A stretch of 38,095 nucleotides of DNA from Treponema sp. UBA3813 (lineage in GTDB: Bacteria > Spirochaetota > Spirochaetia > Treponematales > Treponemataceae), in assembly GCA_002368605.1 (NCBI GenBank), contig DFEB01000020.1, forward strand, positions 43,096-81,190, written 5' to 3'. Positions 1 through 16,054 of the stretch are shown here, piece after piece (within the stretch, counting starts at the first letter, position 1; each line of letters opens with the position of its first letter). Position numbers and translations under genes: made by a program. Below the pieces are notes generated by a model. It made no database searches and was not told where the DNA came from. It saw only the letters and a list, made by a program, of their open reading frames with translations.

Positions 1-1547
1 AATTCCGGGTGGAACTGAACACCCACATGGAAGTGTCCGTCCTCTCCGCCCGCCTCCACGGCTTCCACAAGGCTTGTGTCAGGGCTAGTTCCGCTGATAA
101 CAAGGCCTGCTTCTTCCAGCTGGCTTCTATAGTCGTTGTTGAATTCGTAGCGGTGTCGGTGACGTTCGTTGATAAGGCTTGACTGATAGGCTTTTTCCAA
201 AATCGTGTCAGGCGTGACCTTACAGGGGTAGCTTCCCAAGCGCATTGTTCCGCCCTTGATTACGCCTTCCTGATTTTTCATCAAATCGATGACAGGATGC
301 TCGCAAAGTTCGTCAAATTCCCTGGAGTTGGCGTCCTTCCAGCCAAGAACCGAGCGGGCAAATTCAATCACCGCAATCTGCATTCCAAGACAGATTCCAA
401 AATACGGAACTTTATGAGTCCGGGCATAACGGCAAGAGGCAATCATTCCTTCGATTCCCCGCTGACCGAATCCCCCCGGAAGGATAATTCCCCTGCAATC
501 CTTAAAGACTTCTTCCGCCGTCTCGTCAGTCACTGAGTCCGAATCCACCCACTTGATTTTTACATTTTTTCCCACCACAAAAGAAGCGTGATTCAGGCTT
601 TCCACAATGCTGAGGTATGAGTCGTGAAGTTTCACATATTTTCCCACCAGAGCAACCTGAATTTCTCCTTTTCGTCCGTGAATTCTCTCCACCATATTTG
701 CCCAGTCTGCAAGAAGGGGATAATGAGAGTCTCCCCTTCCCTGCTCGATTCCCAAATCACGGCAGACAACATCGTCCATATTCTGGGCGTGAAGCATGAG
801 GGGAACTTCGTAAAGGCTCTTACAGGTCGTGTTGTTGATAACGCAGTCTTCGCCCACATTGCAGAAAAGCGAAATCTTCTTTCGGATGTCCAAAGGAATT
901 TCTTTGTCGCAGCGGGCAACGATGATGTCCGGGTGGATTCCAACCGCCATCAGCTCCTTTACAGAATGTTGGGTCGGCTTGGACTTGTATTCGTCCGAGC
1001 CACTGATATAAGGCACGAGGCAGACATGAATGAAAAGGCAGTTGCGTCGGCCAACCTCAATTGCCAGCTGGCGGATTGCCTCAAGGAAGGGCTGGCTTTC
1101 AATGTCACCGATAGTTCCGCCCACTTCCACAAGGCTCACATCAGCCCCGCTCACCTCGGCATTTTTCATGATAAAATCTTTAATCTCGTTGGTAACATGG
1201 GGGATAATCTGCACGGTCTGCCCCAAATACTCGCCCTGCCGCTCCTTGTTCAGCACATTCCAGTAAACACGGCCGCTGGTCAGATTTGAATAGCGGGTAA
1301 GATTCTCATCGATAAATCGCTCATAATGCCCCAAATCAAGGTCGGTTTCCGCTCCGTCATCAGTAACAAAGACTTCGCCATGCTGAAAAGGGCTCATGGT
1401 GCCGGGGTCAACATTCATATAAGGGTCGAGTTTTTGGCTCACGACCTTCAAACCGCGGCACTTCAAAAGACGCCCCAAACTCGCCGCCGTAATTCCCTTT
1501 CCAAGTCCTGAGACAACACCGCCGGTCACAAAAATAAATTTCGTCAT
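1..1547 (-). CDS. pyrG: CTP synthase, 3' end cut by window edge
   Basis: CTP synthase aminates UTP to CTP using ATP and glutamine in the cytosol. The frame is open from the ATG at 1547 to the window edge, giving 515 codons. The N-terminus ([18 protein letters not shown]) is the canonical synthetase-domain start with its P-loop. Further on are [15 protein letters not shown] and [10 protein letters not shown], typical of the amidoligase domain. The C-terminal class I glutamine amidotransferase shows the nucleophile motif GICLGMQ near base 390 and ends inside VQFHPE, which supplies the catalytic His and Glu. The family is usually about 535-545 residues, so only some 20-30 residues are missing. 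A strong GGAGG lies 5 nt before the ATG. It follows the ykgJ-like gene by 32 bp, so it is probably expressed from the promoter at 2324-2352 and its leader hairpin. Confidence 0.97.
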
Positions 1548-1579
1548 ATTTTCCTCCATTCAAATCTAAAAATCGTCAC

Positions 1580-2233
1580 TTAATTTCCTGAAGCCATGCT
1601 GCAAATCCACCTGATGCGCTGGATTGATTTGGGCAAAATCTCCCTCAGCATTTTTGTTTCTATGTTGTCAGGATTTATGGAAATCGCTTTCTCCATCGTA
1701 TCCGTTGAAATCGGCGGCAAAATCCCGAAAATCTTCCGCACTTCCCCCTCGCTGTACTGACGATGAGAGAGAGGAGGCTTGTGGGAAGAAAGAATTTCTG
1801 CGGGATAGAATTTGCAGGGCTTGAAAATGAGTTCCCCAGTCTTTGACTTTGCGCCATAAGCTCCGAAAAACCTGCACACAAAGGCCCGTCCGCCATAAAT
1901 CGAGCAATGATTGTCGTCATTCTCATTCCAGAAAGGGCAGCCCTTGTTCTCAGGAAAGGGAAATTCTCCGTCTGAGACCTTTTCCGCCACATCCGCCTTA
2001 TTTTCCAAAAGCCAGGCCGCCATATAATCCGCCTCACATTCCAAAAGGTCTGGCTCAAAATTCCTGCAGCACTCGCCGCAGCCACGCGGGCAGGTAAAAC
2101 CCGATTTTTCGTACCAGACAGCCTGTTTTTGGGCAATCTGGGCGTAAAGCGTCATCATCGCACGCAAGATTTCTTCTTCTCGCGTGCCGCTTAATTTCGT
2201 TAAAATGTCGCTTATATCACTGTCAATTTCCAT
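1580..2233 (-). CDS. YkgJ-family cysteine-cluster protein
   Basis: 217-residue protein of the YkgJ/CxxCxxCC family, a putative zinc- or iron-binding cytosolic fold of unknown biochemical role. The first cluster reads CPRGCGECC and the second is GCPFWN....HCSIYGGRAFVCRFFG, so about eight cysteines fall in the conserved spacing. I chose the ATG at 2233 (MEIDSD), preceded by AAAGGA. An in-frame ATG at 2269 exists, but it lies inside the 3' arm of the leader hairpin, and the extra peptide (MEWASFFALKDF) is just the translated hairpin and T-tract. It is the first gene of a unit with pyrG (32-bp gap). Family assignment is secure; function is not known. Confidence 0.85.
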   Translation of the reverse strand: MEIDSDISDILTKLSGTREEEILRAMMTLYAQIAQKQAVWYEKSGFTCPRGCGECCRNFEPDLLECEADYMAAWLLENKADVAEKVSDGEFPFPENKGCPFWNENDDNHCSIYGGRAFVCRFFGAYGAKSKTGELIFKPCKFYPAEILSSHKPPLSHRQYSEGEVRKIFGILPPISTDTMEKAISINPDNIETKMLREILPKSIQRIRWICSMASGN

Positions 2234-2248
2234 AAAATCCTTTAAAGC

Positions 2249-2308
2249 AAAAAAAGACGCCCATTCCATTCAACGGCGACAATGCCATTAAATCGAATGA
2301 GCGTCTTT
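2249..2308 (-). promoter_or_regulatory. Leader hairpin with terminator-like U-tract (ykgJ-pyrG)
   Basis: Read on the minus strand, 5' arm AAAGACGCTCATT pairs with 3' arm AATGGGCGTCTTT (13 pairs, one G-U) and runs on through CGATTTAATGGC against GCCGTTGAATGG with a single G-G mismatch, closing on the six-base loop ATTGTC. Seven Ts follow the 3' arm. It begins about 15 nt after the predicted -10 and ends about 16 nt before the ATG at 2233. It matches the carA leader at 11655-11712 in layout, in the ATTCGATTT segment and in the G-G mismatch. Attenuator role is inferred. Confidence 0.7.
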
Positions 2309-2323
2309 GCTCTTTATGGGGAT

Positions 2324-2352
2324 ATTTTACGCAAAGGAGGTGGTCTTGTCAA
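2324..2352 (-). promoter_or_regulatory. Promoter of ykgJ-pyrG unit
   Basis: Minus strand: -35 TTGACA (2352-2347), 17-bp spacer, -10 TAAAAT (2329-2324). The predicted start point is just upstream of the leader hairpin. The -35 lies only 17 bp beyond the stop of the upstream cNMP-binding gene, so read-through from that operon is possible; no terminator is visible between them. Confidence 0.75.
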
Positions 2353-2369
2353 TGGTGCGTATCTTTTGG

Positions 2370-2888
2370 CTAATTCCCTGCGATTTCGTTGAAAAGAGCC
2401 TGATAGAGCATGGCCTTATCCTTGTTGGTGCTGCGGATTGTGTTTGAAAGCCGCTGAGCCAGCTTGAGCAGAACCTTGTAGCCCAAAATGCTCTCTTTCT
2501 GGCACAATTCGTGAAATTTTTTACTGGTCAGAACGAGAACCTGGCACTCGTCAATCGCCGTAACAGTCGCGCTTCTCTTGTCGTTGCTGACAAGTGCCGT
2601 CTCGCCGAAGAAGACATTCATGCTGGCGTCTAAATCTGCAAGGGCAATAGTGTCTCCTGCCGGCGTGTCGCGGTAAATGAGAACCGAGCCTGAATAAAGG
2701 ATGTAAAACTCGTCGCCAACATCGCCTTCTTTGATTATAACCTGCCCTGGCTTAAATTTTTTCATGCTGATGCTTTCGTAGAGCTGAGTCAGGATTTCCC
2801 GGTCACCTTCCTTCTTGGGGTCAAAGTCAGAGAAAAGCGAGATTTTGGCAAGTTTTGGCAGAACTTCATCGAGATTTTTCGTTTCCAT
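2370..2888 (-). CDS. Stand-alone cyclic nucleotide-binding domain protein
   Basis: 172-residue protein that is essentially one cNMP-binding (CAP_ED) beta-roll, residues about 17-140. The phosphate-binding cassette is visible at 94-109 (FGETALVSNDKRSATV) with the Arg-Ser-Ala that normally grips the cyclic phosphate. There is no C-terminal helix-turn-helix, so it is not a CRP/FNR transcription factor, and no transmembrane segment. It follows the two channel-like genes by 15 bp in the same operon. I infer that it acts as a detached ligand-sensing partner of those channels, in place of the fused C-terminal domain seen in CNG/HCN-type channels. The ligand could be cAMP, cGMP or something else. Confidence 0.85.
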   Translation of the reverse strand: METKNLDEVLPKLAKISLFSDFDPKKEGDREILTQLYESISMKKFKPGQVIIKEGDVGDEFYILYSGSVLIYRDTPAGDTIALADLDASMNVFFGETALVSNDKRSATVTAIDECQVLVLTSKKFHELCQKESILGYKVLLKLAQRLSNTIRSTNKDKAMLYQALFNEIAGN

Positions 2889-2903
2889 TTATTATTCCCC
2901 CTT

Positions 2904-4091
2904 TCAGTTTGCCTTGCCACGGACGAAAATGGCTTTTGAGTGGCTCGGAATTATGTAGCTTGAAGACGGAGCCAGAATCGGCTCGTTGCTTTTGAGCAGC
3001 TTGACTTTCTGAAGATTGTCGATGATTTTACTGATATCAGGATTTTTCTGAGCCTCCCGCAAGGCTTCCGTTCGCCTGTGGTGGAAGTTGCCGGAATTGA
3101 GCAAAAGCCCTATTAAAAGCCCCTGCTCTTCCCGTCTTTCTTCCTCGTAGGCCTTTAATTCACCGTAAGTTTTTCCCACGAAGGATTCAGGAATATCCCC
3201 GATTAAAATGCCGGAAGTGGCGTCGTTACCGCTAATCAGGGTGCTGATGACATGGCTGTAGCCCTGACCGCTGGATGCCGTGGCAAGCAGGCTCTTTTCG
3301 TAATCCTGCATGAGAATTATTTCGTCGCAGTGAGCCATTTTCAAATGTTTTTCAAATTTCGGACTCATAAGCTCGGCCACCACATAAAGTCCGTGGTTCA
3401 GATTTTCGATTGTAAGCACGGCAAGGACTGTGCGGGAGTCAATTTCAAGGTCAGAATAATCTTTTGATTTGTCGGAAATTACAAGAACCCGCTCCGCGTC
3501 CTGAATTTTTGCCCTTTTTAGGGTGGATTCGTCGGTAAAATCCCCGGCAACAAAATGAAGATCCTTGTAAGTGTCATGACTTTTAAGCAGCTGAACCTGC
3601 TCTGCAGCCTCGTTTATCAGCACAATCATGTCCATGCTGATTTCCGGATTTGATTTTAGAACCGTCTTTAAGATTTTGTCAAAGCCCGGTCTCCATCCGC
3701 AAATTATAAAATGTCCGCTCATGTCTTTTAATGTTTCCAATCCCTTGTCCTTTTTTTCCTGAATATCAACGAAAAGCGCCGTGATATTACCACGGATATA
3801 GCTGAAAAAGAAAGTGCCTGTAATCAGCAGAGTGATTGCGGCAGCCCGCCCCGAAAGTGACTCACAAACATACTCAAAGTAGCCCGCAAATACGGCGACG
3901 CACATGAAGTAGAAACTGTCGAACTTTGTTTCGATTCCGCTTCCTGTTTTGGTCTCCACATTGTAGACGATTATGGTCATGCTCACTATGAGAAGGATAA
4001 TCGCCAGATAGGCATAAGTTGACGGAGTTTTAAGAAGAATCCTGAGTAAGTGAAAAAATCGATTCCGCTTTCCGTCCTTTTTTTTACCCAT
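2904..4091 (-). CDS. Pore-loop/RCK ion channel-like subunit 2
   Basis: 395 residues. A basic N-terminus is followed by TM1 (about 24-44), a pore region and TM2 (about 82-104), then a cytosolic RCK/TrkA-N Rossmann domain (starting GHFIICGWRPG near 126) and a C-terminal TrkA-C-like part. This is the layout of MthK-type channels. The filter position that reads TTVGYGD in potassium channels reads VFAGYFE here (67-73), with the following GR of TM2 at the correct distance. The second filter Gly is an aromatic and the motif is not potassium-selective by any known rule. It is a close paralogue of the gene directly upstream (15-bp gap), suggesting a heteromeric channel. Ion and gating are unknown. Confidence 0.8.
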   Translation of the reverse strand: MGKKKDGKRNRFFHLLRILLKTPSTYAYLAIILLIVSMTIIVYNVETKTGSGIETKFDSFYFMCVAVFAGYFEYVCESLSGRAAAITLLITGTFFFSYIRGNITALFVDIQEKKDKGLETLKDMSGHFIICGWRPGFDKILKTVLKSNPEISMDMIVLINEAAEQVQLLKSHDTYKDLHFVAGDFTDESTLKRAKIQDAERVLVISDKSKDYSDLEIDSRTVLAVLTIENLNHGLYVVAELMSPKFEKHLKMAHCDEIILMQDYEKSLLATASSGQGYSHVISTLISGNDATSGILIGDIPESFVGKTYGELKAYEEERREEQGLLIGLLLNSGNFHHRRTEALREAQKNPDISKIIDNLQKVKLLKSNEPILAPSSSYIIPSHSKAIFVRGKAN

Positions 4092-4106
4092 GCTTTTTTG
4101 CCCCCC

Positions 4107-5237: not shown

Positions 5238-5297
5238 TTAAAAGCTCCTTGTAAATGCTGCCGGTGTTGGGCAATTTCAAACCAACTGTCCCCTTCT

Positions 5298-5326
5298 ATG
5301 ATACAAGAATATCCAATTTTTGAAAA
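5298..5326 (-). promoter_or_regulatory. Probable promoter of channel operon
   Basis: Minus strand: -35 TTTTCA (5326-5321), 17-bp spacer, -10 TATCAT (5303-5298), about 60 nt before the ATG at 5237. The match to consensus is moderate. No strong terminator separates it from the carB C-half stop at 5369. Confidence 0.45.
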
Positions 5327-5368
5327 TAATTTTAAATCACAAAAAAATCAAAAGCAAAAATATCCGGC

Positions 5369-6952
5369 CTAAAAATGATTTATATCCACGAGGCTAGTAT
5401 TCTCCAGCGAATAGGGAGAAGCCAGGCAGTCCGCAAGGGCATTTGCCGTGTCGATGGAAGTCAGGCAGTCGATGTCACGCTCAACGGCAAGTCGGCGGAG
5501 TTTTACGCTTTCTGCAACCGGGTCACGGCCTTTGGCACTGGTTGAAACTACATAAACCACCCGCCCGCTTTCAAGGAGAGTCATCACATTGTCGCTGAAA
5601 TTCTCATGGACTTTTGCCACATGGGTTACGGTCATGCCGCTTCTCTCGATAGTCGCCGCATTTCCTGTGGTGGCGTAGAGCTTAAAGCCCAGGTCGTAGA
5701 ATTTTCTGGCAAGGGCGGGAAGTTCCGGCAGGTCAGACTCCCGCACGGAAAAGAGGACACCAAAGGGGGAAGTCTCCCCCTCACTTTTCTTTGGTCGAAT
5801 CATCTTCCAGCCGGCGGCGGCCATTCCATTAAAAATCGCTTCTTCCCTCGTGGCGGCAATTCCCAAGACTTCACCGGTGCTTTTCATCTCAGGTCCTAAG
5901 TGGGTGTCCACATCCATGAGTTTTTCAAAACTGAAGACCGGGACTTTTGCGGCAAAATAGGGTGGCTTTCGGTAGAGTCCTGTGCCGTAGCCCATTTGAG
6001 AAAGCCTCTCGCCCAGCATGGCTCTGGTGGCAAGGTCTATCATGGGAAGCCCTGAAACTTTTGAAAGATAAGGCACAGTGCGGCTGGAACGGGGATTTGC
6101 TTCTATTATATACAAGTCATTTTCGTAAATCAGATACTGAATGTTGACCAGACCTTTCGTTCCCAGAGCAAGGGCCAGGTCTGTGGACTGACGGACGATT
6201 TTTTCTTCGATTTCTGGAGTGAACTCGCCTGGATAAAGGGCGATGGAATCCCCGGAGTGAATGCCCGTGCGCTCGATATGCTCCATGATTCCCGGAATCA
6301 AAACCGATTCGCCGTCGGAAATGCAGTCTACTTCCAGCTCTTTTCCTTCCATATATTTGTCGATGAGGACAGGATTTTCGATTCCGCCCCGCAAGATGAT
6401 TTTCATGTATTCTTTCACATCCGCATTGTTGCGGGCGATAATCATGTTCTGTCCGCCAAGAACATAGCTCGGTCTCATCAGAACCGGGTAGCCGATTTTT
6501 TCCGCCGCTTCAAGGGCCTCAACTTCGGTAAAAACCGTGAGCCCGCGGGGGCGTTTGATTGAAAGACGGTCACAAAGTTCTTCAAAACGCTCACGGTCTT
6601 CGGCAAGGTCGATGGCGTCGGCGCTTGTTCCCAAAATGCGAACTCCCTGACTGTCTAAAAATTTTGCCAGCTTGATTGCAGTTCCGCCACCAAAAGCCAC
6701 CACCACGCCCAAAGGTTTTTCCACGGCGAGAACATTCATAACATCGACTGGAGTAAGCGGCTCAAAATAAAGTCGGTCAGCCGTGTCAAAATCAGTGGAG
6801 ACGGTCTCAGGATTGTTGTTGATTATGGCGACCTCGTAGCCCAGCCTTTTAAGAGCCTGAACGCACTGAACTGAAGCATAGTCGAATTCAATTCCCTGCC
6901 CGATGCGGATAGGTCCTGAGCCAAGCACGACAATAGTATTAGTACGCATCAT
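5369..6952 (-). CDS. carB: Carbamoyl-phosphate synthase large chain, C-terminal half
   Basis: 528-residue protein equal to the second half of CarB: the ATP-grasp unit that phosphorylates carbamate, plus the C-terminal MGS-like allosteric domain. It opens with RTNTIVVLGSGPIRIGQGIEFDY, the exact start of the second CarB repeat, and carries the ATP-grasp block NPRSSRTVPYLSKVSG. The regulatory domain (GVLFSV...ATTGNAATIERSG) is complete. I start it at ATG 6952, with GGAGG 8 nt upstream; the longer open frame is only asnB read out of frame. It overlaps the last codons of asnB by 14 bp, which implies coupled translation. The hinge before the allosteric domain encodes EGETSP from a palindromic repeat. 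The partner N-half is two genes upstream. Confidence 0.95.
   Translation of the reverse strand: MMRTNTIVVLGSGPIRIGQGIEFDYASVQCVQALKRLGYEVAIINNNPETVSTDFDTADRLYFEPLTPVDVMNVLAVEKPLGVVVAFGGGTAIKLAKFLDSQGVRILGTSADAIDLAEDRERFEELCDRLSIKRPRGLTVFTEVEALEAAEKIGYPVLMRPSYVLGGQNMIIARNNADVKEYMKIILRGGIENPVLIDKYMEGKELEVDCISDGESVLIPGIMEHIERTGIHSGDSIALYPGEFTPEIEEKIVRQSTDLALALGTKGLVNIQYLIYENDLYIIEANPRSSRTVPYLSKVSGLPMIDLATRAMLGERLSQMGYGTGLYRKPPYFAAKVPVFSFEKLMDVDTHLGPEMKSTGEVLGIAATREEAIFNGMAAAGWKMIRPKKSEGETSPFGVLFSVRESDLPELPALARKFYDLGFKLYATTGNAATIERSGMTVTHVAKVHENFSDNVMTLLESGRVVYVVSTSAKGRDPVAESVKLRRLAVERDIDCLTSIDTANALADCLASPYSLENTSLVDINHF
5765..5780. repeat. Palindrome GGGGGAAGTCTCCCCC inside carB C-half
   Basis: A 16-bp near-perfect inverted repeat, in frame, at the linker between the ATP-grasp and allosteric domains. 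The same 16 bases occur inside carA at 10954-10969, and both copies encode EGETSP in the same reading phase. Confidence 0.8.
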
Positions 6953-8714
6953 TGTGGACTCCTCCGATTGCTCTTCCGCTGGGTTCGTCCATGTTTTTCC
7001 AGGCGGCATCCCATTCCAGGGCTTTTGCCGTTGAGCAGGCTACTCCCGCTTCGTGGGGAACACATTTGGCGGCAGAGTCGCTGGGGAAAAGGCGGCTGTA
7101 GATTTCGCGGTAGTAATATTCTTCTTTTGTTTTGGGCGGATTTACGGGGAAGCGGTTTTCACGGCGGGCAAATTCCTGATCGCTTACTTTTTCCTCGGTG
7201 ATTTTTTTGAGGGTGTCAATCCAGTTGTATCCAACACCGTCAGAGAACTGCTCTTTTTGCCGCCATGCGATGTTTTCTGGGAGCAGGTCTTCAAAGGCCT
7301 TGCGCAAAATCCATTTTTCAATCCGCTGCTTTCCGTCGCCCAGGCGGATGCTCATTTTGTCATTTGGATTAAGGCTCATGGCGATGTCGATAAAATCCTT
7401 GTCAAGAAATGGAACCCTGCCTTCAACGCCCCAGGCCATAAGGCTTTTGTTCGCGCGGAGACAGTCATAAAGATGAAGCTTGCTCATTTTTCGCACCAGC
7501 TCTTCGTGGAATTCTTTAGCATTTGGGGCTTTATGGAAGTAAAGATAGCCGCCGAAAAGCTCGTCGCTTCCCTCGCCAGAAAGAACCATCTTGATTCCCA
7601 TGGATTTTATAACGCGGGCAAGAAGATACATGGGCGTACTTGCCCGCACGGTGGTGATGTCGTAGGTTTCGATGTGATAGATTACATCAGGCAGGGCGTC
7701 CAGCGCTTCCTGAATGGTGAAGTGGACTTCGTGATGAACGGTGCCGATATAGTCGGCGGCCTTTTGGGCGGCGATTAAGTCCGGCGAGCCTTCCAAGCCG
7801 ATTGCGAAAGAGTGGAGCTGAGGCCACCACGCGCTTTCCTTACTGTCGCTTTCGATTCGCTTTTTGGAGAATCTCTGGGTGATTGCGGCGATTATTGAGG
7901 AATCCAGACCGCCTGAAAGAAGCACGCCGTAGGGAACATCGCTCATAAGCTGGGCTTTTACCGCCGTTTCCAAGCCGTTCCTAACTTTTTCAATCACGGC
8001 GGGGTTGATGATTTCTCCCTTATCGTCTGTGGCTTTGGGAGAATTCTTAACAAAGTCGTAGCTTTTCCAGTCGCGGTGATACCATTTCACGGGTTTGCCT
8101 TTGTCGGAGGAGACTTTCCCCTCCTTGCTATACAAATAGCTTCCGTTGGGGAATTCTTCGATTGTAACGCACTCGCCTTCCAGGGCTTTCAGCTCGCTTG
8201 CGACATAGTAGCGGCCGGCCTTGTCCCAGCCCTGATACAAGGGAATTACGCCGATTTCGTCCCTGGCAATCAGGTAGGCGTCGCGCTCGCTGTCGTAGAG
8301 GGCAAAGGCGAAAATGCCTGAAAGTTCTTCAATCATGGCGGAAAAGTCGCCGCTCTCCCGGTATTTTTTGTAAAGGGGCAGGATTACCTCGCAGTCGCTC
8401 CCGGTAAGGAAATGATAGCTTTGGGCGAACTGGGCGCGGAGATTTTTATGATTGTAGATTTCGCCGTTTGCCGCAAGAATCAGCTTTCCGTCGTCGCTTA
8501 CAAGGGGCTGCTTTCCGCTAAGAGGGTCAACGATTGAAAGACGCTCGTGGCTCAAAATCGCATTGTCGCCGGTGTAAACGCCGCTCCAGTCCGGCCCCCG
8601 GTGACGGATTTTCTTACTCATTTCCAGAACCTGAGCACGAAGTTCTTCTTTCAAGCCCTGAGCTATGGGCTGGCTTCCGCTTGATAAATCAAAACATCCT
8701 ACAAATCCACACAT
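6939..8714 (-). CDS. asnB: Asparagine synthetase B, glutamine-hydrolysing
   Basis: 591 residues. AsnB makes asparagine from aspartate, ATP and glutamine. Cys2 follows the initiator Met directly (MCGFVGCFD), as required for the N-terminal class II amidotransferase nucleophile; AANGEIYNH and the RHRGPD block belong to the same domain (2 to about 195). The synthetase domain carries the pyrophosphate loop LLSGGLDSS (265-273) and SGEGSDELFGGY. AGGAG precedes the ATG. It begins 9 bp after the carB N-half stop and ends inside the start of the carB C-half, so it is embedded in the carbamoyl-phosphate synthase operon. A glycine/serine-rich stretch near 198-204 (EGKVSSDKG) is encoded by a degenerate palindrome at about 8107-8125. 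Slightly longer than the E. coli enzyme (554). Confidence 0.96.
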   Translation of the reverse strand: MCGFVGCFDLSSGSQPIAQGLKEELRAQVLEMSKKIRHRGPDWSGVYTGDNAILSHERLSIVDPLSGKQPLVSDDGKLILAANGEIYNHKNLRAQFAQSYHFLTGSDCEVILPLYKKYRESGDFSAMIEELSGIFAFALYDSERDAYLIARDEIGVIPLYQGWDKAGRYYVASELKALEGECVTIEEFPNGSYLYSKEGKVSSDKGKPVKWYHRDWKSYDFVKNSPKATDDKGEIINPAVIEKVRNGLETAVKAQLMSDVPYGVLLSGGLDSSIIAAITQRFSKKRIESDSKESAWWPQLHSFAIGLEGSPDLIAAQKAADYIGTVHHEVHFTIQEALDALPDVIYHIETYDITTVRASTPMYLLARVIKSMGIKMVLSGEGSDELFGGYLYFHKAPNAKEFHEELVRKMSKLHLYDCLRANKSLMAWGVEGRVPFLDKDFIDIAMSLNPNDKMSIRLGDGKQRIEKWILRKAFEDLLPENIAWRQKEQFSDGVGYNWIDTLKKITEEKVSDQEFARRENRFPVNPPKTKEEYYYREIYSRLFPSDSAAKCVPHEAGVACSTAKALEWDAAWKNMDEPSGRAIGGVHNDAY

Positions 8715-8723
8715 ATTTTTCTC

Positions 8724-10295
8724 CTATTTGTTTTTGTTTAAAAATTCCTCAGCCTCATTTTCGCCGCCTGTGACAGAGTAAAAATAAGGCGTTTCTGCGT
8801 CAAATTCTCCCGCACAGGTATCGACCATTTTGAAAGAGCGTGGCGGATAGAGCATTTCCTTCTTCTCATGAGACGGCTCAGTCTCCGCCTGAGAAATTTT
8901 TTCCAGCTTCCACAAGAACCACTCGTCGATTTTCGTAATCTCATGGATTTCTTCAACACTGAGAAGTTTTCGCTTTAAAGCCTGATAAATGGCGAAGATT
9001 CTCTGATCGGTGCACTGGGCCACCCGCTCACGGATTTTCTGGTCGCCCTCTTTGACGAAGGCCGGAAGATTCAAGTCCTTTACGCCAACTTCAAGACCAC
9101 GCGCCGCCTTTAAAATCGCTTCCTCAAAATTCTGACCGATTGCCATGACTTCGCCGGTTGCCTTCATCTGGGTTCCAAGTTTGCGGGCGGCGTAGACGAA
9201 TTTATCAAAGGGAAATTTTGGCATTTTTACCACGACATAATCCAAAACCGGCTCAAAGCAGGCCTTTGTTTTCTTTGTAACGAAGTTTGGAATCTCGTCC
9301 AGCGTAAAGCCCACGGCGATAAGAGCCGCAACTTTCGCGATTGGGTAACCTGTGGCCTTACTTGCAAGGGCAGATGAGCGGGAAACGCGAGGATTCACTT
9401 CAATCACGGCGTATTCAAAGCTGTCCGGGTTCAAGGCGAACTGGCAGTTACAGCCGCCCTCAATCTCAAGGGCAGAAATTATGTTCAGTGCCGCTGAGCG
9501 CAGCATCTGATATTCCTTGTCGGCAAGAGTAACCGTGGGGGCGATGACGATTGAATCTCCCGTGTGAACGCCAACCGGGTCAAAGTTTTCCATGGAACAG
9601 ACCGTAATCACATTGCCCTTTGAATCCCGCATGACCTCAAACTCAACTTCCTTCCAGCCCGAAATACATTTTTCCACCAGAATCTGATGAATTGGAGAGC
9701 GGTGAAGTCCGTTATGGGCGATTTCGTCCAGTTCCCGGTCATTGTTTACGATTCCACCGCCGGTTCCGCCCAGAGTAAAGGCCGGCCGGATAATGGCAGG
9801 AAAGCCGATTTCATCGTGAACAAAAGCGGCCGCATCCTCGTAAGTCGTCACGACCTTTGAGGGAATGCAGGGCTCGCCGATTGCTTCCATCGTGTCCTTA
9901 AAAAGCTGGCGGTCTTCGGCCTTGTCGATTGTAAGAGGCCGCGCTCCCAGAAGCTTGACTCCGTAGCTTTCCAAAAATCCCGATTTCGCAAGCTCCATGC
10001 TGAGGGTAAGCCCCGTCTGACCTCCCAAAGTCGAAAGCAGACTGTCCGGCTTCTCCTTTTCGATGATTCGCTCCAGCGTTGTGAGAGTCAGCGGCTCAAG
10101 GTAGATTTCGTCCGCCATGGAATGGTCTGTCATAAGGGTGGCCGGATTCGAGTTTACAAGGCAGACTTCAAGCCCCAGAGATTTCAAAGCCTTGCAGGCC
10201 TGATTTCCCGCATAGTCAAATTCCGCAGCCTGACCGATTACGATTGGGCCGCTTCCGATTATCATTACTTTATGAATATCTTTATTTAGTGGCAT
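8724..10295 (-). CDS. carB: Carbamoyl-phosphate synthase large chain, N-terminal half
   Basis: 523 residues equal to the first half of CarB: the ATP-grasp unit that makes carboxyphosphate, and the oligomerization region. It begins [22 protein letters not shown], as in full-length CarB, and has [21 protein letters not shown] and [17 protein letters not shown]. It ends shortly after [18 protein letters not shown], the block that normally runs straight into the second half, so the break is at the domain boundary and not a random frameshift. The start overlaps carA by 14 bp, with a GGAG Shine-Dalgarno inside carA. The second half is encoded at 5369-6952, after asnB. A working enzyme would need CarA plus both halves. 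Confidence 0.95.
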
Positions 10296-11640
10296 TTTCT
10301 TTCTCCTTTTTCATCATTCCAACGAAGCGGTCGAACAAAAAATTCGTGTCGTGGGGGCCGCCGCAGGCTTCCGGGTGGAATTGCACGCTAAAGGCCGGAA
10401 TGTCGGTGTAGGTGATTCCCTCGCAAGTCTCGTCGTTGGCATTGACAAAGGACAAGCGCGCAGATTCCGGGAGGGAAGCCGTCTCCACCGCGTAGCCGTG
10501 ATTCTGGCTTGTGATGTAGATTCTGCCACTTTCCAAGTCCTTGCAGGGATGGTTTCCGCCTCTGTGCCCGTATTTGAGTTTTGAGGTTTTTGCGCCACGG
10601 GCAAGGGCCAGCATCTGGTGTCCCAAGCAGATTCCAAAAATCGGGATTGCCTTTTTTGTTATTGTCTCGCTTGCCTTTCCTGTCATTGTCGGACTTGATC
10701 CGACAATCTCCTTATTCCATTCGCATAATTTTCTGATTTCTTCAATCACAGCCGTATTTTCCGCCGGGTCGCCGGGCCCGTTTGAAAGCATGATTCCGTC
10801 AGGCTTTAGTCTTATGACTTCTTCCGTCTTTGTGTCGTAAGGAAGAATCGTCACCTTACAGCCCCGCTTTTCCAGTTCCCGGCCAATATTTGCCTTTGCT
10901 CCAAAATCTAAGAGACAGACGGAAAATCGAGAGTCAGAAGATGAAACTTTATTGGGGGAAGTCTCCCCCTCGGCTGCAATGGCTTCGCCATTTCCGCCTG
11001 CCCCCTCTCCTAAGGGGCTTCGCCCCTTAAAATCCCCGGACACACTGTTTTCCCTTTGCTGAACGCTTTTCACTGCATTTTCGATTTTGTAGGCACGGAT
11101 TTCTTCGAGGTGCCGAATCAAGTTCGGCATGACATTTTTTTCAGCCTGCATGACATTTTTTTCAATCGGTTTGGCAGTTTTTCCTGCCGTTTTGACGGCT
11201 GTTTCTGTCGGCATATCAGCTGTTTCTGTTCCCGACACAATCATTCCGTTCATGACGCCGGCTTCCCGGAGTTTTTTGGTGAGTTTTCTTGTGTCGATTC
11301 CGCAGATTCCCACGATTCCCTGTTTTTTTAAGAATGAGTCCAAATCGCCTGAACAGCGGAAATTGCTTGGCTTTTCGCATATTTCGCGCACGATGTAGCC
11401 GGAAGCCCAGATTTTTTTGCTCTCAAAATCTTCGGGGATAAGACCGTAGTTTCCAATCAGGGGGAAAGTCTGCGTGATGATTTGCCCGAAATAGCTGGGA
11501 TCGGTGAGGGTTTCGATGTAGCCGGTCATTCCTGTGGTGAAGACCGTCTCGCCGATTGTTTTCCCCCGTGCGCCGATTGCCTTTCCTTCAAAAACGCTGC
11601 CGTCCGCAAGAATCAAAAAAGCCTTGTCGCTCAAAAACAT
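10282..11640 (-). CDS. carA: Carbamoyl-phosphate synthase small chain with repeat-derived insertions
   Basis: 452 residues against the usual 360-385. CarA hydrolyses glutamine and channels ammonia to CarB. The N-terminal domain ([12 protein letters not shown]...[16 protein letters not shown]) and the amidotransferase domain are intact, with nucleophile Cys338 in GICLGHQ and His422/Glu424 in QFHPEA. Two segments are not family-like: about 136-239, between [10 protein letters not shown] and [14 protein letters not shown], and about 309-331, just before [11 protein letters not shown]. Both coincide with DNA palindromes and repeats (10682-10710, 10954-11029, 11109-11160), so they look like in-frame repeat insertions in linkers. 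All catalytic blocks survive, so the enzyme is probably active. It is first in the carA-carBN-asnB-carBC operon and has its own leader hairpin. Confidence 0.95.
10682..10710 (+). repeat. RPE-like palindrome in carA, copy 1
   Basis: GTC followed by arms ATTGTCGGA (10685-10693) and TCCGACAAT (10699-10707) around loop CTTGA. In the carA frame it encodes IVGSSPTMT directly before the conserved [11 protein letters not shown] block. The same loop and arm length recur at 16028-16054 and, inverted, at 11109-11134. Confidence 0.85.
10954..11029. repeat. Cluster of three palindromes in carA linker
   Basis: Three adjacent inverted repeats: GGGGGAAGTCTCCCCC (10954-10969), AATGGC and GCCATT around TTC (about 10978-10993), and TAAGGGGC and GCCCCTTA around TTC (11011-11029). 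All lie within the non-family linker of carA and remain in frame ([21 protein letters not shown]). Confidence 0.8.
11109..11160 (-). repeat. RPE-like palindrome in carA, copy 2, with tandem repeat
   Basis: Read on the minus strand: GTC, then ATGCCGAA, loop CTTGA, TTCGGCA(C), the same family as the copy at 10682-10710 but inverted. Next to it the 17-mer TGAAAAAAATGTCATGC is present twice in tandem, encoding the doubled peptide EKNVM of carA. Confidence 0.8.
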
Positions 11641-11654
11641 AATTCCCCCAAAAT

Positions 11655-11712
11655 AAAAAGGCGTTCACCCCATCTGCCGACACTTATAGCGGCAAATCGA
11701 ATGAACGCCTTT
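11655..11712 (-). promoter_or_regulatory. Leader hairpin with U-tract (carA operon)
   Basis: Minus strand: AAAGGCGTTCA (11712-11702) pairs with TGAACGCCTTT; next TTCGATTT opposes AGATGGGG with one G-G mismatch; inner stem GCCG with CGGC closes a ten-base loop. Five Ts follow. It starts about 11 nt after the -10 and ends 14 nt before the ATG, just before a GGGGG Shine-Dalgarno. Same design as 2249-2308; the different bases in the arms keep pairing. Confidence 0.7.
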
Positions 11713-11722
11713 GTTCTTGAAA

Positions 11723-11751
11723 GTTATACCCTCTTTGCCCAATGTGGTCAA
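11723..11751 (-). promoter_or_regulatory. Promoter of carA-carBN-asnB-carBC
   Basis: Minus strand: -35 TTGACC (11751-11746), 17-bp spacer, -10 TATAAC (11728-11723). It diverges from the amt promoter 60 bp away, so one short region governs both units. The 320 bp between carA and amt is fully taken up by these promoters and leaders. Confidence 0.8.
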
Positions 11752-11810
11752 GAGCGAAAGGAAGAAATAGAAAAGGAAGTGTTTTTTTGCAAAATAAAAT
11801 TTTTCTTCGC

Positions 11811-11839
11811 TTGACAAAAATTTTTCTTCACGCTATAAA
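11811..11839 (+). promoter_or_regulatory. Promoter of amt
   Basis: -35 TTGACA (11811-11816), 17-bp A/T-rich spacer, -10 TATAAA (11834-11839). The glnN promoter has the same -35, spacer length and -10, and both are followed 20-25 nt later by AATGAGGTCGCA. Confidence 0.85.
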
Positions 11840-11859
11840 TGAGCCAACACAAGACAATG

Positions 11860-11893
11860 AGGTCGCAAAGTTCACGCTTTGCGACCTTTTTTT
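11860..11893 (+). promoter_or_regulatory. amt leader hairpin 1 (terminator-like)
   Basis: Arms AGGTCGCAAAG (11860-11870) and CTTTGCGACCT (11877-11887) enclose loop TTCACG, and seven Ts run to 11893. It is a textbook intrinsic terminator only about 14 nt after the predicted start, so most transcripts would stop unless something intervenes. Its sequence is nearly identical to the glnN leader hairpin. Confidence 0.8.
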
Positions 11894-11897
11894 ATTC

Positions 11898-11950
11898 GGC
11901 GATGATGTCGGGCATGTGCGCAGTGTCTGATGTCACCGCCAATTTTTTTT
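11898..11950 (+). promoter_or_regulatory. amt leader hairpin 2
   Basis: Outer GGCG (11898-11901) with CGCC (11937-11940), inner GGGCA with TGTCT (including G-U pairs) and a large internal loop, followed by eight Ts right before the GGAGG of amt. Weaker than hairpin 1; the fold is my reading only. Confidence 0.4.
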
Positions 11951-11961
11951 GGAGGTAAAAA

Positions 11962-13692
11962 ATGAATGATTTATGGTCGGTTTGGTTTTTAATCGGCGCG
12001 GCTTTCGTCTTCTGGATGCAGGCCGGATTCGCCATGGTGGAAACGGGATTTACCAGGGCGAAAAACGCGGGCAACATCATAATGAAAAACCTGATGGACT
12101 TCTGCATCGGCACGGTCATGTGGTTTTTGATTGGAGCGTCTTTCATGCTCTCTTTCACAGACCCGGCAAGCGGCGAAGTGAGCAGGGGAATCTGGAGCGT
12201 CTTCGGAAAGCCGGGATTTTCGGTCTTCACGGATTACGCCCACTTTGACTTCTCGAACTTTGTCTTCAACCTGGTTTTCTGCGCCACGACGGCAACAATC
12301 GTAAGCGGGGCCATGGCAGAGCGGACGAAATTCAGCTCTTACTGCATTTATTCGGCAATCATTTCGGGAATCATCTACCCGATTGAGGCTCACTGGACTT
12401 GGGGCGGCGGATTCTTGGCACAATGGGGCTTCCACGACTACGCAGGTTCGGCCTGTATTCACATGGTAGGCGGAATCTGCGCCCTGATTGGTGCGGCTAT
12501 GGTAGGACCAAGAATCGGAAAATTCACCAGAGATGAGGGCGGTAAGGTCGTAAAGGTAAAGGCTTTTCCCGGCCACAACCTGACAATAGGTGCTTTGGGT
12601 GTCTTTATCCTCTGGCTGGGCTGGTACGGCTTCAACGGTGCGGCGGCTACAGATGTTCCGACTTTGGGAAGCGTTTTCCTGACCACGACAGTAGCCCCGG
12701 CAGTGGCGACTGTCGTCACCATGATTTTCACATGGATTAAGTACGGAAAGCCTGATGTTTCCATGTGCCTCAACGCTTCCCTTGCGGGTCTGGTAGCAAT
12801 CACGGCTCCCTGTGATGTGACAGACTGTGCGGGGGCTGCAATCATCGGTGCGGTGGCGGGTCTTCTCGTCGTCTTCGGAATCTGGCTTTTGGACTACAAG
12901 CTCCACATTGATGACCCGGTAGGTGCGGTGGCAGTCCACATGATGAACGGAATCTGGGGAACAATAGCCGTGGGACTTTTCGCCACAAAATCTGCCCCTG
13001 GCTTTGAGACGGCTGGAATCGCCGAGGGTCTTTTCTACGGCGGCGGATTTGGTCAGCTCATTAAACAGTTGGGCGGCATGTTCGTGATTATCGCCTGGAC
13101 TGTGGTGACGATTTTGATTGTCTTTTCTGTGATTAAAAAGCTTCACGGCTTACGCGTTTCTACAGAAGAAGAAATCATCGGTCTGGATAAGATTGAGCAC
13201 GGCCTGGACTCAAGCTACGCAGGATTCGACATCGCCCAGAACTATTCCAGCGCGGAAGTTGCGGCGGCAAAGAGGGACGGTGTTAAAATTCCTGCAGAAA
13301 AGGCAGTTCCTGTGGTCAAGGTTCCGTCAAGTAAGCCGGACGCAAAATTCCACAAAGTCGTCATCGTGACCCGACAGACAAAATTCGATGAAATTAAGTC
13401 TGCAATGAACGACATCGGCGTGACCGGCATGACCGTAACCAATGTTTTGGGCTGCGGAGTCCAGCACGGAGCCGGGGAATTCTACCGAGGCGCCCAAATC
13501 GACATGACTCTTTTACCGAAAATCAAGGTTGAAATCGTCGTGAGCGAAGTTCCGGTCGATCTGGTTGTGACAGCCGCAAAAGAAGTGCTCTACACCGGTC
13601 ACATCGGCGACGGCAAAATCTTCGTATACGATGTGGAGAATGTAATCAAAGTCCGCACTGGCGAAGAAGGCTATGAAGCCCTGCAGGATTAA
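11962..13692 (+). CDS. amt: Ammonium transporter fused to a C-terminal PII domain
   Basis: 576 residues. Residues 1-400 are an Amt/Mep/Rh channel with about 11 membrane spans; the paired pore histidines are visible at H167 (ACIHMVGG) and H326 (VAVHMMNGIWG). After a linker (about 421-461) comes a complete GlnK/PII domain (463-573): FHKVVIVTRQTKFDEIKSAM, a T-loop with EFYRGAQ (Tyr508 at the usual uridylylation position), and LLPKIKVEIVV. PII proteins normally plug AmtB as separate trimers; here the regulator is covalently attached to each channel. No separate glnK is adjacent. Strong GGAGG Shine-Dalgarno 6 nt before the ATG. Upstream is a promoter and terminator-like leader shared with glnN, the next gene. 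No terminator is seen between amt and the glnN leader. Confidence 0.96.
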   Translation: MNDLWSVWFLIGAAFVFWMQAGFAMVETGFTRAKNAGNIIMKNLMDFCIGTVMWFLIGASFMLSFTDPASGEVSRGIWSVFGKPGFSVFTDYAHFDFSNFVFNLVFCATTATIVSGAMAERTKFSSYCIYSAIISGIIYPIEAHWTWGGGFLAQWGFHDYAGSACIHMVGGICALIGAAMVGPRIGKFTRDEGGKVVKVKAFPGHNLTIGALGVFILWLGWYGFNGAAATDVPTLGSVFLTTTVAPAVATVVTMIFTWIKYGKPDVSMCLNASLAGLVAITAPCDVTDCAGAAIIGAVAGLLVVFGIWLLDYKLHIDDPVGAVAVHMMNGIWGTIAVGLFATKSAPGFETAGIAEGLFYGGGFGQLIKQLGGMFVIIAWTVVTILIVFSVIKKLHGLRVSTEEEIIGLDKIEHGLDSSYAGFDIAQNYSSAEVAAAKRDGVKIPAEKAVPVVKVPSSKPDAKFHKVVIVTRQTKFDEIKSAMNDIGVTGMTVTNVLGCGVQHGAGEFYRGAQIDMTLLPKIKVEIVVSEVPVDLVVTAAKEVLYTGHIGDGKIFVYDVENVIKVRTGEEGYEALQD

Positions 13693-13722
13693 ACTCTTGT
13701 TGATAAAAAATCACAATTCCGC

Positions 13723-13751
13723 TTGACAAAAAAAAATCAAAACGATATAAA
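13723..13751 (+). promoter_or_regulatory. Promoter of glnN
   Basis: -35 TTGACA (13723-13728), 17-bp spacer, -10 TATAAA (13746-13751), the same arrangement as the amt promoter. Confidence 0.85.
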
Positions 13752-13770
13752 AGAACCATCAAACGGCAAT

Positions 13771-13810
13771 GAGGTCGCAGAGTTCACGCTTTGCGACCTC
13801 TTCTGTTTTT
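13771..13810 (+). promoter_or_regulatory. glnN leader hairpin 1
   Basis: Arms GAGGTCGCAGAG (13771-13782) and CTTTGCGACCTC (13789-13800), one G-U pair, loop TTCACG, then TCTTCTGTTTTT. The arms and loop are almost base-for-base those of the amt leader (only one arm base differs), while the flanking DNA differs. Confidence 0.8.
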
Positions 13811-13818
13811 AAATCGGC

Positions 13819-13880
13819 AAAGACGCCGCATTTTCTGACTGGTGTACAACGGTCTGGAGAATGCGGCGCTTTTTGTTTTT
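13819..13880 (+). promoter_or_regulatory. glnN leader hairpin 2 with U-tract
   Basis: GCCGCATT (13825-13832) pairs with AATGCGGC (13859-13866), continued inward by TTCT and GACTG against CGGTC and TGGAG, then CTTTTTGTTTTT. It opens with GCAAAGACGC, as the ykgJ leader does. It lies about 20 nt before the glnN ATG. A second in-frame ATG at 13861 lies within its 3' arm and is not the gene start. Confidence 0.65.
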
Positions 13881-13899
13881 CAAAAATACGGAGAAAACT

Positions 13900-15987
13900 A
13901 TGGACAAAGTAACTTCAATTTTCGGAGAGAATGTTTTTAACGAGACTGTTATGAAAGCTCGCCTGCCAAAAGAGACTTTCAAGCAGCTGATGAAGACCAT
14001 TGATGACGGCGAAAAACTCAGCCCCACGGTGGCAAATGTCGTTGCGAACGCAATGAAGGACTGGGCAATCGAAAAAGGCGTTACGCATTTTACCCACTGG
14101 TTCCAGCCGCTCACAGGCACAACAGCCGAAAAGCACGATTCATTTATCACACCTTCAAGCGAGGGAAAGGTGATTATGGAATTTTCGGGCAAGGAGCTGG
14201 TTCAGGGCGAGCCGGACGCATCTTCCTTCCCTTCCGGCGGAATCCGGGCCACATTCGAGGCACGCGGCTACACTGCATGGGATCCGACTTCCTACGCTTT
14301 CATTAAAGACGGCGTTCTCTGCATTCCGACAGCCTTCTGCTCTTACACCGGCGAGGCTCTGGACAAAAAGACTCCGCTTTTGCGCTCAATGGAAGCAATT
14401 TCAAAACAGGCCGTGCGTGTCCTTCACCTTTTCGGAAACAATGAAGTCACCAGCGTAAAAACCACGGTTGGCCCTGAGCAGGAATATTTCCTTGTGGACA
14501 AGGCCGCATGGGAAAAGCGGGAGGATCTTATTTTTACTGGCCGAACCCTTTTTGGCGCAAAATCACCGAAAGGACAGGAGCTTGAAGACCATTATTTCGG
14601 CATGATTAAGCCCCGCGTTCAGGCTTTCATGAAGGACTTGAACGAAGAGCTTTGGAAGCTGGGAATCCTTGCCAAGACCGAGCACAACGAAGTCGCCCCT
14701 GCCCAGCACGAGCTTGCCCCTATTTTCACCACCACCAACATCGCCTGTGACCACAACCAGCTTACTATGGAAATGATGAAAAAAGTCGCGGCAAAGCATG
14801 GAATGGTATGTTTGCTTCACGAAAAGCCTTTTGCGGGCGTAAACGGAAGCGGTAAACATAACAACTGGTCCATTTCCACCAACACTGGAAAGAACCTTCT
14901 TGATCCCGGTGCCACGCCCCAAAGCAACGCGCAATTTCTCCTATTCTTGTGCGCTGTGATTAAGGCCGTGGACGAGTATCAGGATTTGCTGAGAATCTCT
15001 GTCGCATCTGCCGGAAACGATCACCGTCTTGGTGCAAACGAGGCACCTCCAGCAATCGTCTCAATGTTCATTGGCGACGAGCTTTCTGAAATCCTGGACT
15101 GCCTTGAAGAAGGAAAACCTTACGGAAGCCACGAAAAAGAGAAGATGCAGATTGGAGTCACGGTTTTGCCCGACTTCAACAAGGACACCACCGACCGAAA
15201 CCGCACTTCACCATTTGCATTCACAGGCAACAAATTCGAATTCCGTATGCTGGGGTCAAGCGAGTCAATTTCATGTGCAAATGTCTTTTTGAACACGGCT
15301 GTGGCGGAGGAACTGAGTCAATTTGCAGACCTTTTGGAACATTCGGCTAATTTCAAGAGCGACCTTCACGACTTGATTCTGAAGACAATTAAGGAGCACA
15401 AGAGAATCATCTTCAACGGAAACGGCTACGATGATTCATGGGTCAAGGAAGCCGAAAAGCGGGGACTTTTGAATCTTAAAAGCACGCCTGAAGCCCTTCA
15501 GCACACTCTGGACGAAAAGAACATCGCCCTCTTTGAAAAGCACGGGGTTTACTCAAAGGTTGAGCTTACAAGCCGCAACGAGATTCACTACGAGAACTAC
15601 TCGAAAATCATCAACATTGAGGCTCTGACGATGATTGACATGGCCAAAAAACTCTACCTTCCGGCCGGAGCAAAATACGCCAAGTTCCTTGCAGACTCTG
15701 TTTCGGTCAAAAAGACTTTGGGAGCGGACGACAGCTACGAAGCCGACTCCCTCAAAAAAGTCAGCTCGCTTACAGGAAAGATTTACGAGCAGGTTCAGGC
15801 TCTTGAAAAGGCTGTGGACGGAGCTGCAAAAGTCTCAGGCGCTGAAGAAAACGCCCTTTATTATAGAAGAGAAGTGTTCAGCGCCATGGGAAAGCTGCGG
15901 GAGGCAGTGGACTGTCTTGAAGGCTTCATCCCCGCAAGCGAATGGCCGGTTCCAAGCTACGGAGATTTGCTTTTCAGCGTGAAGTAA
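13900..15987 (+). CDS. glnN: Type III glutamine synthetase
   Basis: 695 residues, the size of the GSIII family (about 700-730) and much longer than GSI. It forms glutamine from glutamate, ammonia and ATP. Diagnostic blocks include [67 protein letters not shown] and [21 protein letters not shown] start at ATG 13900 (MDKVTSIFG) with CGGAG 6 nt upstream; the longer frame (MRRFLFF...) is translated leader hairpin. It follows the ammonium transporter and is preceded by the same kind of promoter and attenuator-like hairpin. No clear intrinsic terminator follows. Confidence 0.97.
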
Positions 15988-16027
15988 AAAAAATGGCGGC
16001 TGGGGATGACCAATAAGTTCAAAAAGT

Positions 16028-16054
16028 GTCATTTTCGGGCTTGACCCGAAAATC
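16028..16054 (+). repeat. RPE-like palindrome between glnN and aroF-pheA
   Basis: GTC, then arms ATTTTCGGG (16031-16039) and CCCGAAAAT (16045-16053) around CTTGA. Compared with the copy inside carA (10682-10710), two arm positions differ on both sides so that pairing is kept. No T-tract follows, so it is not a good terminator on this strand. The rest of 15988-16104 shows nothing I recognise. Confidence 0.8.

Follow-up and report, generated by a model that had tools for sequence, protein, structure and literature searches.

Four glutamine-economy leaders in a Treponema genome: a probable regulon of single-hexaloop ANTAR antitermination

In EutV/EutW of Enterococcus faecalis, an ANTAR protein acts on RNA hairpins with a six-base loop (hexaloop), with A at loop position 1 and G at position 4, and the hairpin overlaps an intrinsic terminator; known ANTAR targets already include P-II, ammonium transporters, and glutamate and glutamine synthases (PMC3369931, PMC8934654). 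A study of dual-hexaloop targets in actinobacteria gives a linker of 2-25 nucleotides (nt) (PMC8164766), and Walshe 2022 (PMC8934654) reduced the definition of the minimal ANTAR site to one hexaloop and saw a need for bioinformatic surveys of natural single sites. The ANTAR protein NitR of Clostridium is tied to ammonia assimilation (PMC6316151, PMC4676874) and is said to induce the genes of glutamine synthetase (GS) and glutamate synthase (GOGAT) on nitrogen limitation (PMC6316151). Here we analyse 38,095 nt of Treponema sp. UBA3813 (assembly GCA_002368605.1, contig DFEB01000020.1, positions 43,096 to 81,190), called the window below, in which four operons that make or spend glutamine (ykgJ-pyrG, carA-carB-asnB, amt-PII and glnN) begin with such a hairpin. 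Going by sequence comparison, we believe the four leaders very probably form one ANTAR antitermination regulon, and that its mechanism is most likely a single-hexaloop variant. The system differs from EutV/EutW in three ways: each terminator has a single hexaloop, placed at the transcript's 5' end and with no two-hairpin linker; the regulator has a degenerate receiver and sits beside glnA; and the targets include pyrG, carA, purF, asnB and gdhA. The leaders contain the following features, with scores from the covariance model described below.

2324..2352, minus strand: ykgJ-pyrG promoter, TTGACA-17-TAAAAT
2299..2312, minus strand: ykgJ-pyrG putative antiterminator hairpin, GAGC[AAAGAC]GCTC
2246..2308, minus strand: ykgJ-pyrG terminator and U-tract, sharing bases with the hexaloop hairpin (53.4 bits)
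11723..11751, minus strand: carA promoter, TTGACC-17-TATAAC
11703..11716, minus strand: carA putative antiterminator hairpin, GAAC[AAAGGC]GTTC
11650..11712, minus strand: carA terminator and U-tract (54.5 bits)
11811..11839, plus strand: amt-PII promoter, TTGACA-17-TATAAA
11853..11864, plus strand: amt putative antiterminator hairpin, GAC[AATGAG]GTC, stem of 3 bp
11859..11898, plus strand: amt terminator 1 and U-tract (34.9 bits)
11897..11910, plus strand: amt second hairpin, CGGC[GATGAT]GTCG, followed by a second U-tract
13723..13751, plus strand: glnN promoter, TTGACA-17-TATAAA
13764..13777, plus strand: glnN switch 1 hairpin, CGGC[AATGAG]GTCG
13771..13810, plus strand: glnN terminator 1 and U-tract (40.9 bits)
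13815..13828, plus strand: glnN switch 2 hairpin, CGGC[AAAGAC]GCCG
13819..13880, plus strand: glnN terminator 2 and U-tract (47.6 bits)

An earlier note, made by a model from the letters of this DNA, held that the four operons follow one plan, and all four leaders do have a promoter of 17-bp spacing, an early hairpin, and a terminator with a U-tract. Each has a hairpin of 3-4 bp with the hexaloop A-N-N-G-N-N and a C-G closing pair, starting 11 (ykgJ), 6 (carA), 13 (amt) or 12 nt (glnN) after the -10; the second amt hairpin is non-canonical, with G at loop position 1. The note linked two hairpin families through a sequence common to glnN hairpin 2 and the ykgJ leader. That sequence, GCAAAGACGC, is indeed found in both and is the hexaloop AAAGAC with its flanks; the two families are one. 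In each leader the 3' strand of the hairpin doubles as the 5' base of the terminator, so the two structures are mutually exclusive. Folding was predicted for 10 of this genome's 11 switches (hexaloop hairpin plus overlapping terminator), and the terminator was always the more stable (-20.1 to -40.3 versus -5.5 to -24.7 kcal/mol; in the ykgJ-pyrG leader, -38.6 versus -24.7 for the hairpin-paired form). In 9 of these 10 the hairpin consumes just the base of the terminator stem, and the upper part stays folded. The observation is thus confirmed, and is stronger than was first stated. The note's idea of one regulon, controlled by transcription attenuation and with a glutamine or nitrogen theme, is supported as well, but its suggestion of an undescribed kind of system does not hold: the hexaloop, its overlap with the terminator and an ANTAR gene linked to glnA point to ANTAR antitermination, which is known for nitrogen genes.

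We infer ANTAR binding and antitermination to work as follows. Transcription would start at or a few bases before the hexaloop hairpin; the carA hairpin, being just 6 nt from the -10, may be the very first bases of its RNA. That the hairpin emerges first would matter because the terminator is much more stable. With ANTAR inactive, the downstream strand of the terminator would capture the 3' strand of the hairpin and polymerase would stop. Active ANTAR would bind the emerging hexaloop (A1, G4 and the C-G closing pair) and hold the base of the terminator stem apart, and the operon would be read. One ANTAR RNA-binding protein probably works all the switches, and makers and spenders of glutamine would then be switched together, the ANTAR operon included. 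By analogy the signal would be low glutamine or low nitrogen; read-through is expected at low glutamine because NitR of Clostridium is said to act on nitrogen limitation.

The element stands out clearly from its background. A scan of both strands of the window for a hexaloop hairpin with an overlapping terminator finds four strong sites, with scores of 30.0-49.5 (glnN twice, carA and ykgJ), and four weak sites outside the leaders (16-16.5). The amt switch is not among the strict-scan sites because its hairpin has three pairs where the scan requires four. We also trained a covariance model on 64 elements of the genus; it describes the terminator and the loop sequence but not the hairpin pairs, and its training set contains the carA, ykgJ, glnA and both glnN sites of this genome and leaves out amt. 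In the window it gives five matches of 34.9-54.5 bits, all in the four leaders, and nothing elsewhere above 15.7 bits, so that neither the channel operon nor any operon past glnN carries the element, in agreement with the earlier note. A sample of 240 kilobases (kb) of this genome contains no strong hexaloop-terminator site and gives model scores of 16.5 bits at most. Nor are early hairpins equally common before unrelated genes, the outcome the earlier note had named as fatal to its idea: a promoter with an early hairpin precedes 3 of the 87 genes in the 240-kb sample that have 80 nt or more of gap upstream (stem scores 24.5-28.5), against 7 of 23 genes in the target regions, all seven of them regulon members (30.0-52.0). 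The script used for this missed the CP-ATP-grasp gene discussed below and ykgJ, the latter because its mechanical start at 2269 lies inside the terminator; judging from the sequence, the true start is likely 2233.

The pairing of the hairpin can be tested separately from the terminator. In our alignment A1 this test is partly circular, the elements having been chosen by the scan, so the better test is a held-out set of 77 model matches from 75 loci outside training, two rows of which are the reverse strand of another. All four hairpin pairs form in 64 of the 77 (mean 23.5 and maximum 35 in 2000 shuffles), and hairpin covariation is 0.669 versus 0.306 when shuffled. Both helices covary, in alignment A1, where pairing was partly selected for, and independently in the held-out set. 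The A1/G4 loop is present in 77/77, a figure to be read knowing that the sequence part of the model favours it. The closing pair is C-G in all 171 hairpin-terminator elements, although the scan does not demand it; many of these elements are orthologous. Among amt leaders of other genomes (80 loci, one dropped as too short), 61 of 79 have A1/G4 hexaloop hairpins, where 20 shuffled sets give between 14 and 31 and the reverse strand gives 16; the next commonest loop class, A1/A4, occurs in 45.

Our genome-wide model searches scored a part of the first-look candidates (150 of 1273 in this genome, 88 per genome in the genus and 35 in the phylum), so their counts are lower bounds. In this genome, matches of at least 34.5 bits stand before carA, ykgJ-pyrG, gltB, glnN (two), gdhA, an amidase and the glnA-ANTAR operon, and the later background is 16.2 bits; the amt and CP-ATP-grasp switches were missed genome-wide and recovered on retrieved local DNA. 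The gltB, gdhA, amidase, amt and CP-ATP-grasp switches were all recovered by the model though outside its training set. There are at least 11 canonical switches in nine units, or eight if the amidase promoter also serves the CP-ATP-grasp gene. The gltB gene is followed by purF, and this operon carries two tandem switches, the second of which, CGGT[AATGAA]GCCG, was spotted by eye and is foldable but was not reported by the model. Tandem switches are spaced by 51 nt in glnN and 78 nt in gltB, with one terminator each. The glnA-ANTAR operon has the switch ACGGC[AAAGAG]GTCGT, with a U-tract ending at the mechanical glnA start. Two other candidate targets were rejected: G000:C2:15507 (24 bits) has no hexaloop stem and no frame seen directly behind it, and G000:C19:31101 (16.2 bits) is at background level.

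The relatives extend this list. We took 20 stretches around listed matches not at glnN, carA or pyrG, one of which was too short and was dropped; the remaining 19 loci hold 21 of the matches listed, before gltB (7), asnB (7), gltD (3), purF (2), glnA (1) and an acyl-ACP thioesterase-like gene (1). Six of the frames behind them were named by family searches and the rest by similar N-termini. In this assembly gltD has no close copy (one match, 38% identity). Of the further members predicted by the earlier note, gltB and purF therefore stand, by the tandem switches here and by both genes in relatives, while trpG was seen only inside an operon, with no switch at its own start. Locus L320, first considered as guaA, is trpG-like. 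The strict scan in relatives finds a switch upstream of glnN in 24 of 29 loci (the thirtieth has no gene start; two of the five without a switch have at most 160 nt of upstream DNA), of carA in 9/30 and of pyrG in 11/30, many loci being cut short.

The switch and the ANTAR gene tend to occur together. Of 59 genomes of the genus, 51 have an ANTAR gene and a median of at least 6 model matches (range 1-14); the eight without have 2, 2, 0, 1, 7, 0, 8 and 0 (p = 0.004 on these lower-bound counts). For genomes at least 90% complete, 24 with and 6 without ANTAR, p = 1.8e-4. Across 149 genomes of the phylum the best match has an E value below 1e-5 in 6 of the 7 with ANTAR and in none of the 142 without, 11 of which have one weak match (4.5e-4 or worse); by group, 5 of the 8 genus members sampled and 2 of the 141 others have ANTAR. 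By the strict scan, 9 of 11 further glnN-type leaders from ANTAR genomes have the switch, as does 1 of 6 from genomes without ANTAR (17 leaders in all). Of the genomes carrying amt loci, 35/38 have ANTAR, or 33/36 among non-Treponema; these 36 were searched out of 75 non-Treponema amt loci, some of which (L005 and others) are labelled only uncultured bacterium. A model match lies within 420 nt upstream of amt in 35/80 loci, and two amt genomes without ANTAR (L047 and L049) have no model match before amt.

The candidate regulator is the one ANTAR-domain gene detected above the Pfam cut-off in this 88.5% complete assembly (G000:C33). It lies directly behind a type I glnA, in the operon with its own switch, and a GlnA-like frame is found within 1.5 kb of ANTAR in 30/30 loci (30 of 55 ANTAR matches). 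Among proteins of solved structure, those related to it by sequence are a putative antiterminator (1s8n), EutV (6wsh), AmiR (1qo0) and a nitrate regulatory protein (4akk). The protein has no Pfam match to a receiver domain at E <= 0.001. In an alignment of 30 relatives, at what we take to be the receiver landmarks (acidic pair and phospho-aspartate), the proteins lack the N-terminal acidic pair, while the aspartate of the phosphorylation site is retained in most. The protein thus lacks the intact receiver domain of EutV-type phosphorylation control. Four EutV residues are named as contacts of G4 (PMC8934654), and on a numbering offset that we inferred, two of them, Lys149 and Glu160, are kept here.

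That ANTAR constantly lies beside glnA and has a degenerate receiver suggests regulation through contact with another protein, perhaps GlnA or PII. AmiR is held by a sensor partner protein. The ANTAR protein NasT also has a sensor partner, NasS (PMC3795266). Partner-protein control is proposed here too, and AmiR has an EAH stretch in common with our ANTAR protein, but the constant neighbour here is a glutamine synthetase (in all 30 loci), not an amide or nitrate sensor, and the contact is a proposal. In Bacillus, feedback-inhibited GS controls TnrA and GlnR. The control of TnrA by GS is described in PMC6316151. The closest named relative of the Amt-PII protein is that of Treponema zioleckii (88% identity), and beyond Treponema most of the nearest relatives belong to Lachnospiraceae and other Clostridia, for which transfer from Clostridia would be the simple reading. 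Tentatively, and with more doubt than belief, we propose that single 5'-terminal hexaloops work with a degenerate-receiver ANTAR protein held and released by its operon partner, glutamine synthetase, as the glutamine sensor, and that regulator and cis-elements entered the genus from Clostridia-like donors as one package.

The strongest competing idea is that these are classical dual-hexaloop ANTAR targets in which we have failed to recognise the second hairpin, hidden in the tandem switches or in the terminator tip. It has some appeal, as glnN and gltB have two switches in series and the tip of the ykgJ terminator, ATTGTC, fits A1/G4. That tip we reject as a second hexaloop, since the related carA and pyrG leaders carry other tip loops, and carA, glnA and gdhA show one canonical hairpin. 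We find a second A1/G4 hexaloop upstream (linker of at most 20 nt, stem of at least 3) in 7 of 169 elements, the 171 minus two that lie at the edge of their locus; the reverse-strand control gives 9 of 169. Of the 98 elements with a promoter-like site, 48 have the -10 located 11-13 nt before the hairpin, which leaves no room for another hexaloop. The two hexaloops with a short linker that define dual-hexaloop ANTAR-target RNA are thus not what we find, and we consider this explanation improbable. The RNA is not to be filed under that family, though its candidate regulator and predicted working are those of ANTAR antitermination.

A second alternative dispenses with the protein: the leader RNA itself would sense glutamine, CTP (cytidine triphosphate) or another metabolite, as a riboswitch or by start-site or slippage attenuation. 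The carA and pyrG genes are both pyrimidine genes with unusually similar leaders, and strong terminators right after the start recall the CTP-sensitive reiterative attenuation of Bacillus subtilis pyrG (PMC4448216). However, the same element stands before gltB, gdhA, glnA, amt and glnN, so attenuation for pyrimidines only is rejected even for carA and pyrG. No known Rfam leader RNA matches the window above its gathering score, little sequence is conserved beyond the hexaloop, the paired strands and the U-tract, and the presence of the element tracks the ANTAR gene; we regard protein-free sensing as very unlikely. Least credible, with hardly any weight in our judgement, is that the hairpins, good intrinsic terminators as they are, merely end upstream transcripts or form constitutive leaders alike by chance composition, since they follow a near-consensus promoter and precede the gene under its control, are absent in strong form from the 240-kb sample, and have a strand outside the terminator that covaries.

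Several points count against ANTAR antitermination by single hexaloops. In E. faecalis both hairpins of the ANTAR targets are needed, with a linker of 5-12 nt (Ramesh 2012, PMC3369931). The other two G4-contact residues of EutV are changed in our protein, Tyr164 aligning with His and Arg142 with Ile on the same inferred offset. The carA hairpin is so near the -10 that a later transcription start would truncate its stem. Three genomes of the genus (G013, G039 and G043; 92, 65 and 72% complete) keep strong switches without a detected ANTAR gene, and these also contributed to the training set; two more (G007 and G034) keep weak ones. In the two genomes with 7 and 8 matches the ANTAR gene was likely missed, because they are 65 and 72% complete. 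Within the phylum, G132 has ANTAR but no model match, and one amt genome without ANTAR (L043) still has a match before amt (27.8 bits). Finally, it is not obviously sensible to co-induce glutamine spenders with makers under nitrogen limitation. Joint induction with the makers may serve to maintain the flux of the spenders (pyrG, carA, purF and asnB) at low glutamine, but the direction of control for spender genes is the weakest part of our model.

The genes behind the four leaders have the identities given in the earlier note, namely pyrG with a CxxCxxCC protein, carA, a split carB with asnB, an Amt-PII fusion and a type III glutamine synthetase.

3..1559, minus strand: pyrG, CTP synthase, downstream of the ykgJ-like gene in the ykgJ-pyrG operon; runs off the window
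1580..2233, minus strand: ykgJ-like CxxCxxCC protein, first gene of that operon
5369..7009, minus strand: carB, C-terminal half of the split gene
6939..8714, minus strand: asnB, asparagine synthase B
8724..10295, minus strand: carB, N-terminal half of the split gene
10282..11640, minus strand: carA
11962..13692, plus strand: amt-PII fusion
13900..15987, plus strand: glnN, type III glutamine synthetase

The carB region at 5369-10295 is two genes, with halves of 523 and 546 amino acids and asnB between them in one operon. The glnN start is likely 13900 rather than the mechanical 13861, again from the sequence. Other glnN-like gene fragments lie at the contig ends of G000:C40 and G000:C22, the latter without its start, and the DNA retrieved upstream of the C40 fragment has no switch. 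The ykgJ-pyrG (2246-2312) and carA (11650-11716) leaders on the minus strand are alike over the whole terminator, with ATTCGATTT in common, as are those of relatives; the likeness along the entire terminator suggests leader duplication or conversion. Copies of the sequence GAAGTCTCCCCC are found in the reading frames of carA, carB and gltB as well as elsewhere (10958, 5769 and L236:3196; 5 copies in 320 kb), and among the matches listed, relatives' CarA alignments are often interrupted near residues 142-178 and 310-330. Together these breaks and copies mean that some proteins of this genome may contain repeat-encoded inserts. Another repeat, GACCAATAAGTTCAAAAAGTG, occurs at 16008-16053, adjoining a palindrome at 16031-16053, and at L239:4024 (2 copies in 320 kb).

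The amidase unit (L238:42-4705, on G000:C29) encodes an isochorismatase-family amidase, likely with a signal peptide, then CP-ATP-grasp, Alpha-E, transglutaminase and AstE/AspA-like genes. Switches stand before the amidase and before the CP-ATP-grasp/Alpha-E/transglutaminase set behind it, the latter being AAGC[AAAGGC]GTTT (32.6 bits). On this evidence they would link a gene set of unassigned function to nitrogen control.

The list in the ANTAR commentary (PMC3369936) does not include this phylum, and in the openly licensed literature we found no recognisable report of ANTAR control in Treponema, or of pyrG, carA, purF or asnB. The leaders described here would make up a whole single-hexaloop regulon, repeated across the genus and with like leaders in Lachnospiraceae, which makes the question posed by Walshe 2022 directly testable. 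They would give these Treponema a candidate nitrogen control circuit, and would extend ANTAR control to the synthesis of CTP, carbamoyl-phosphate, purines and asparagine.

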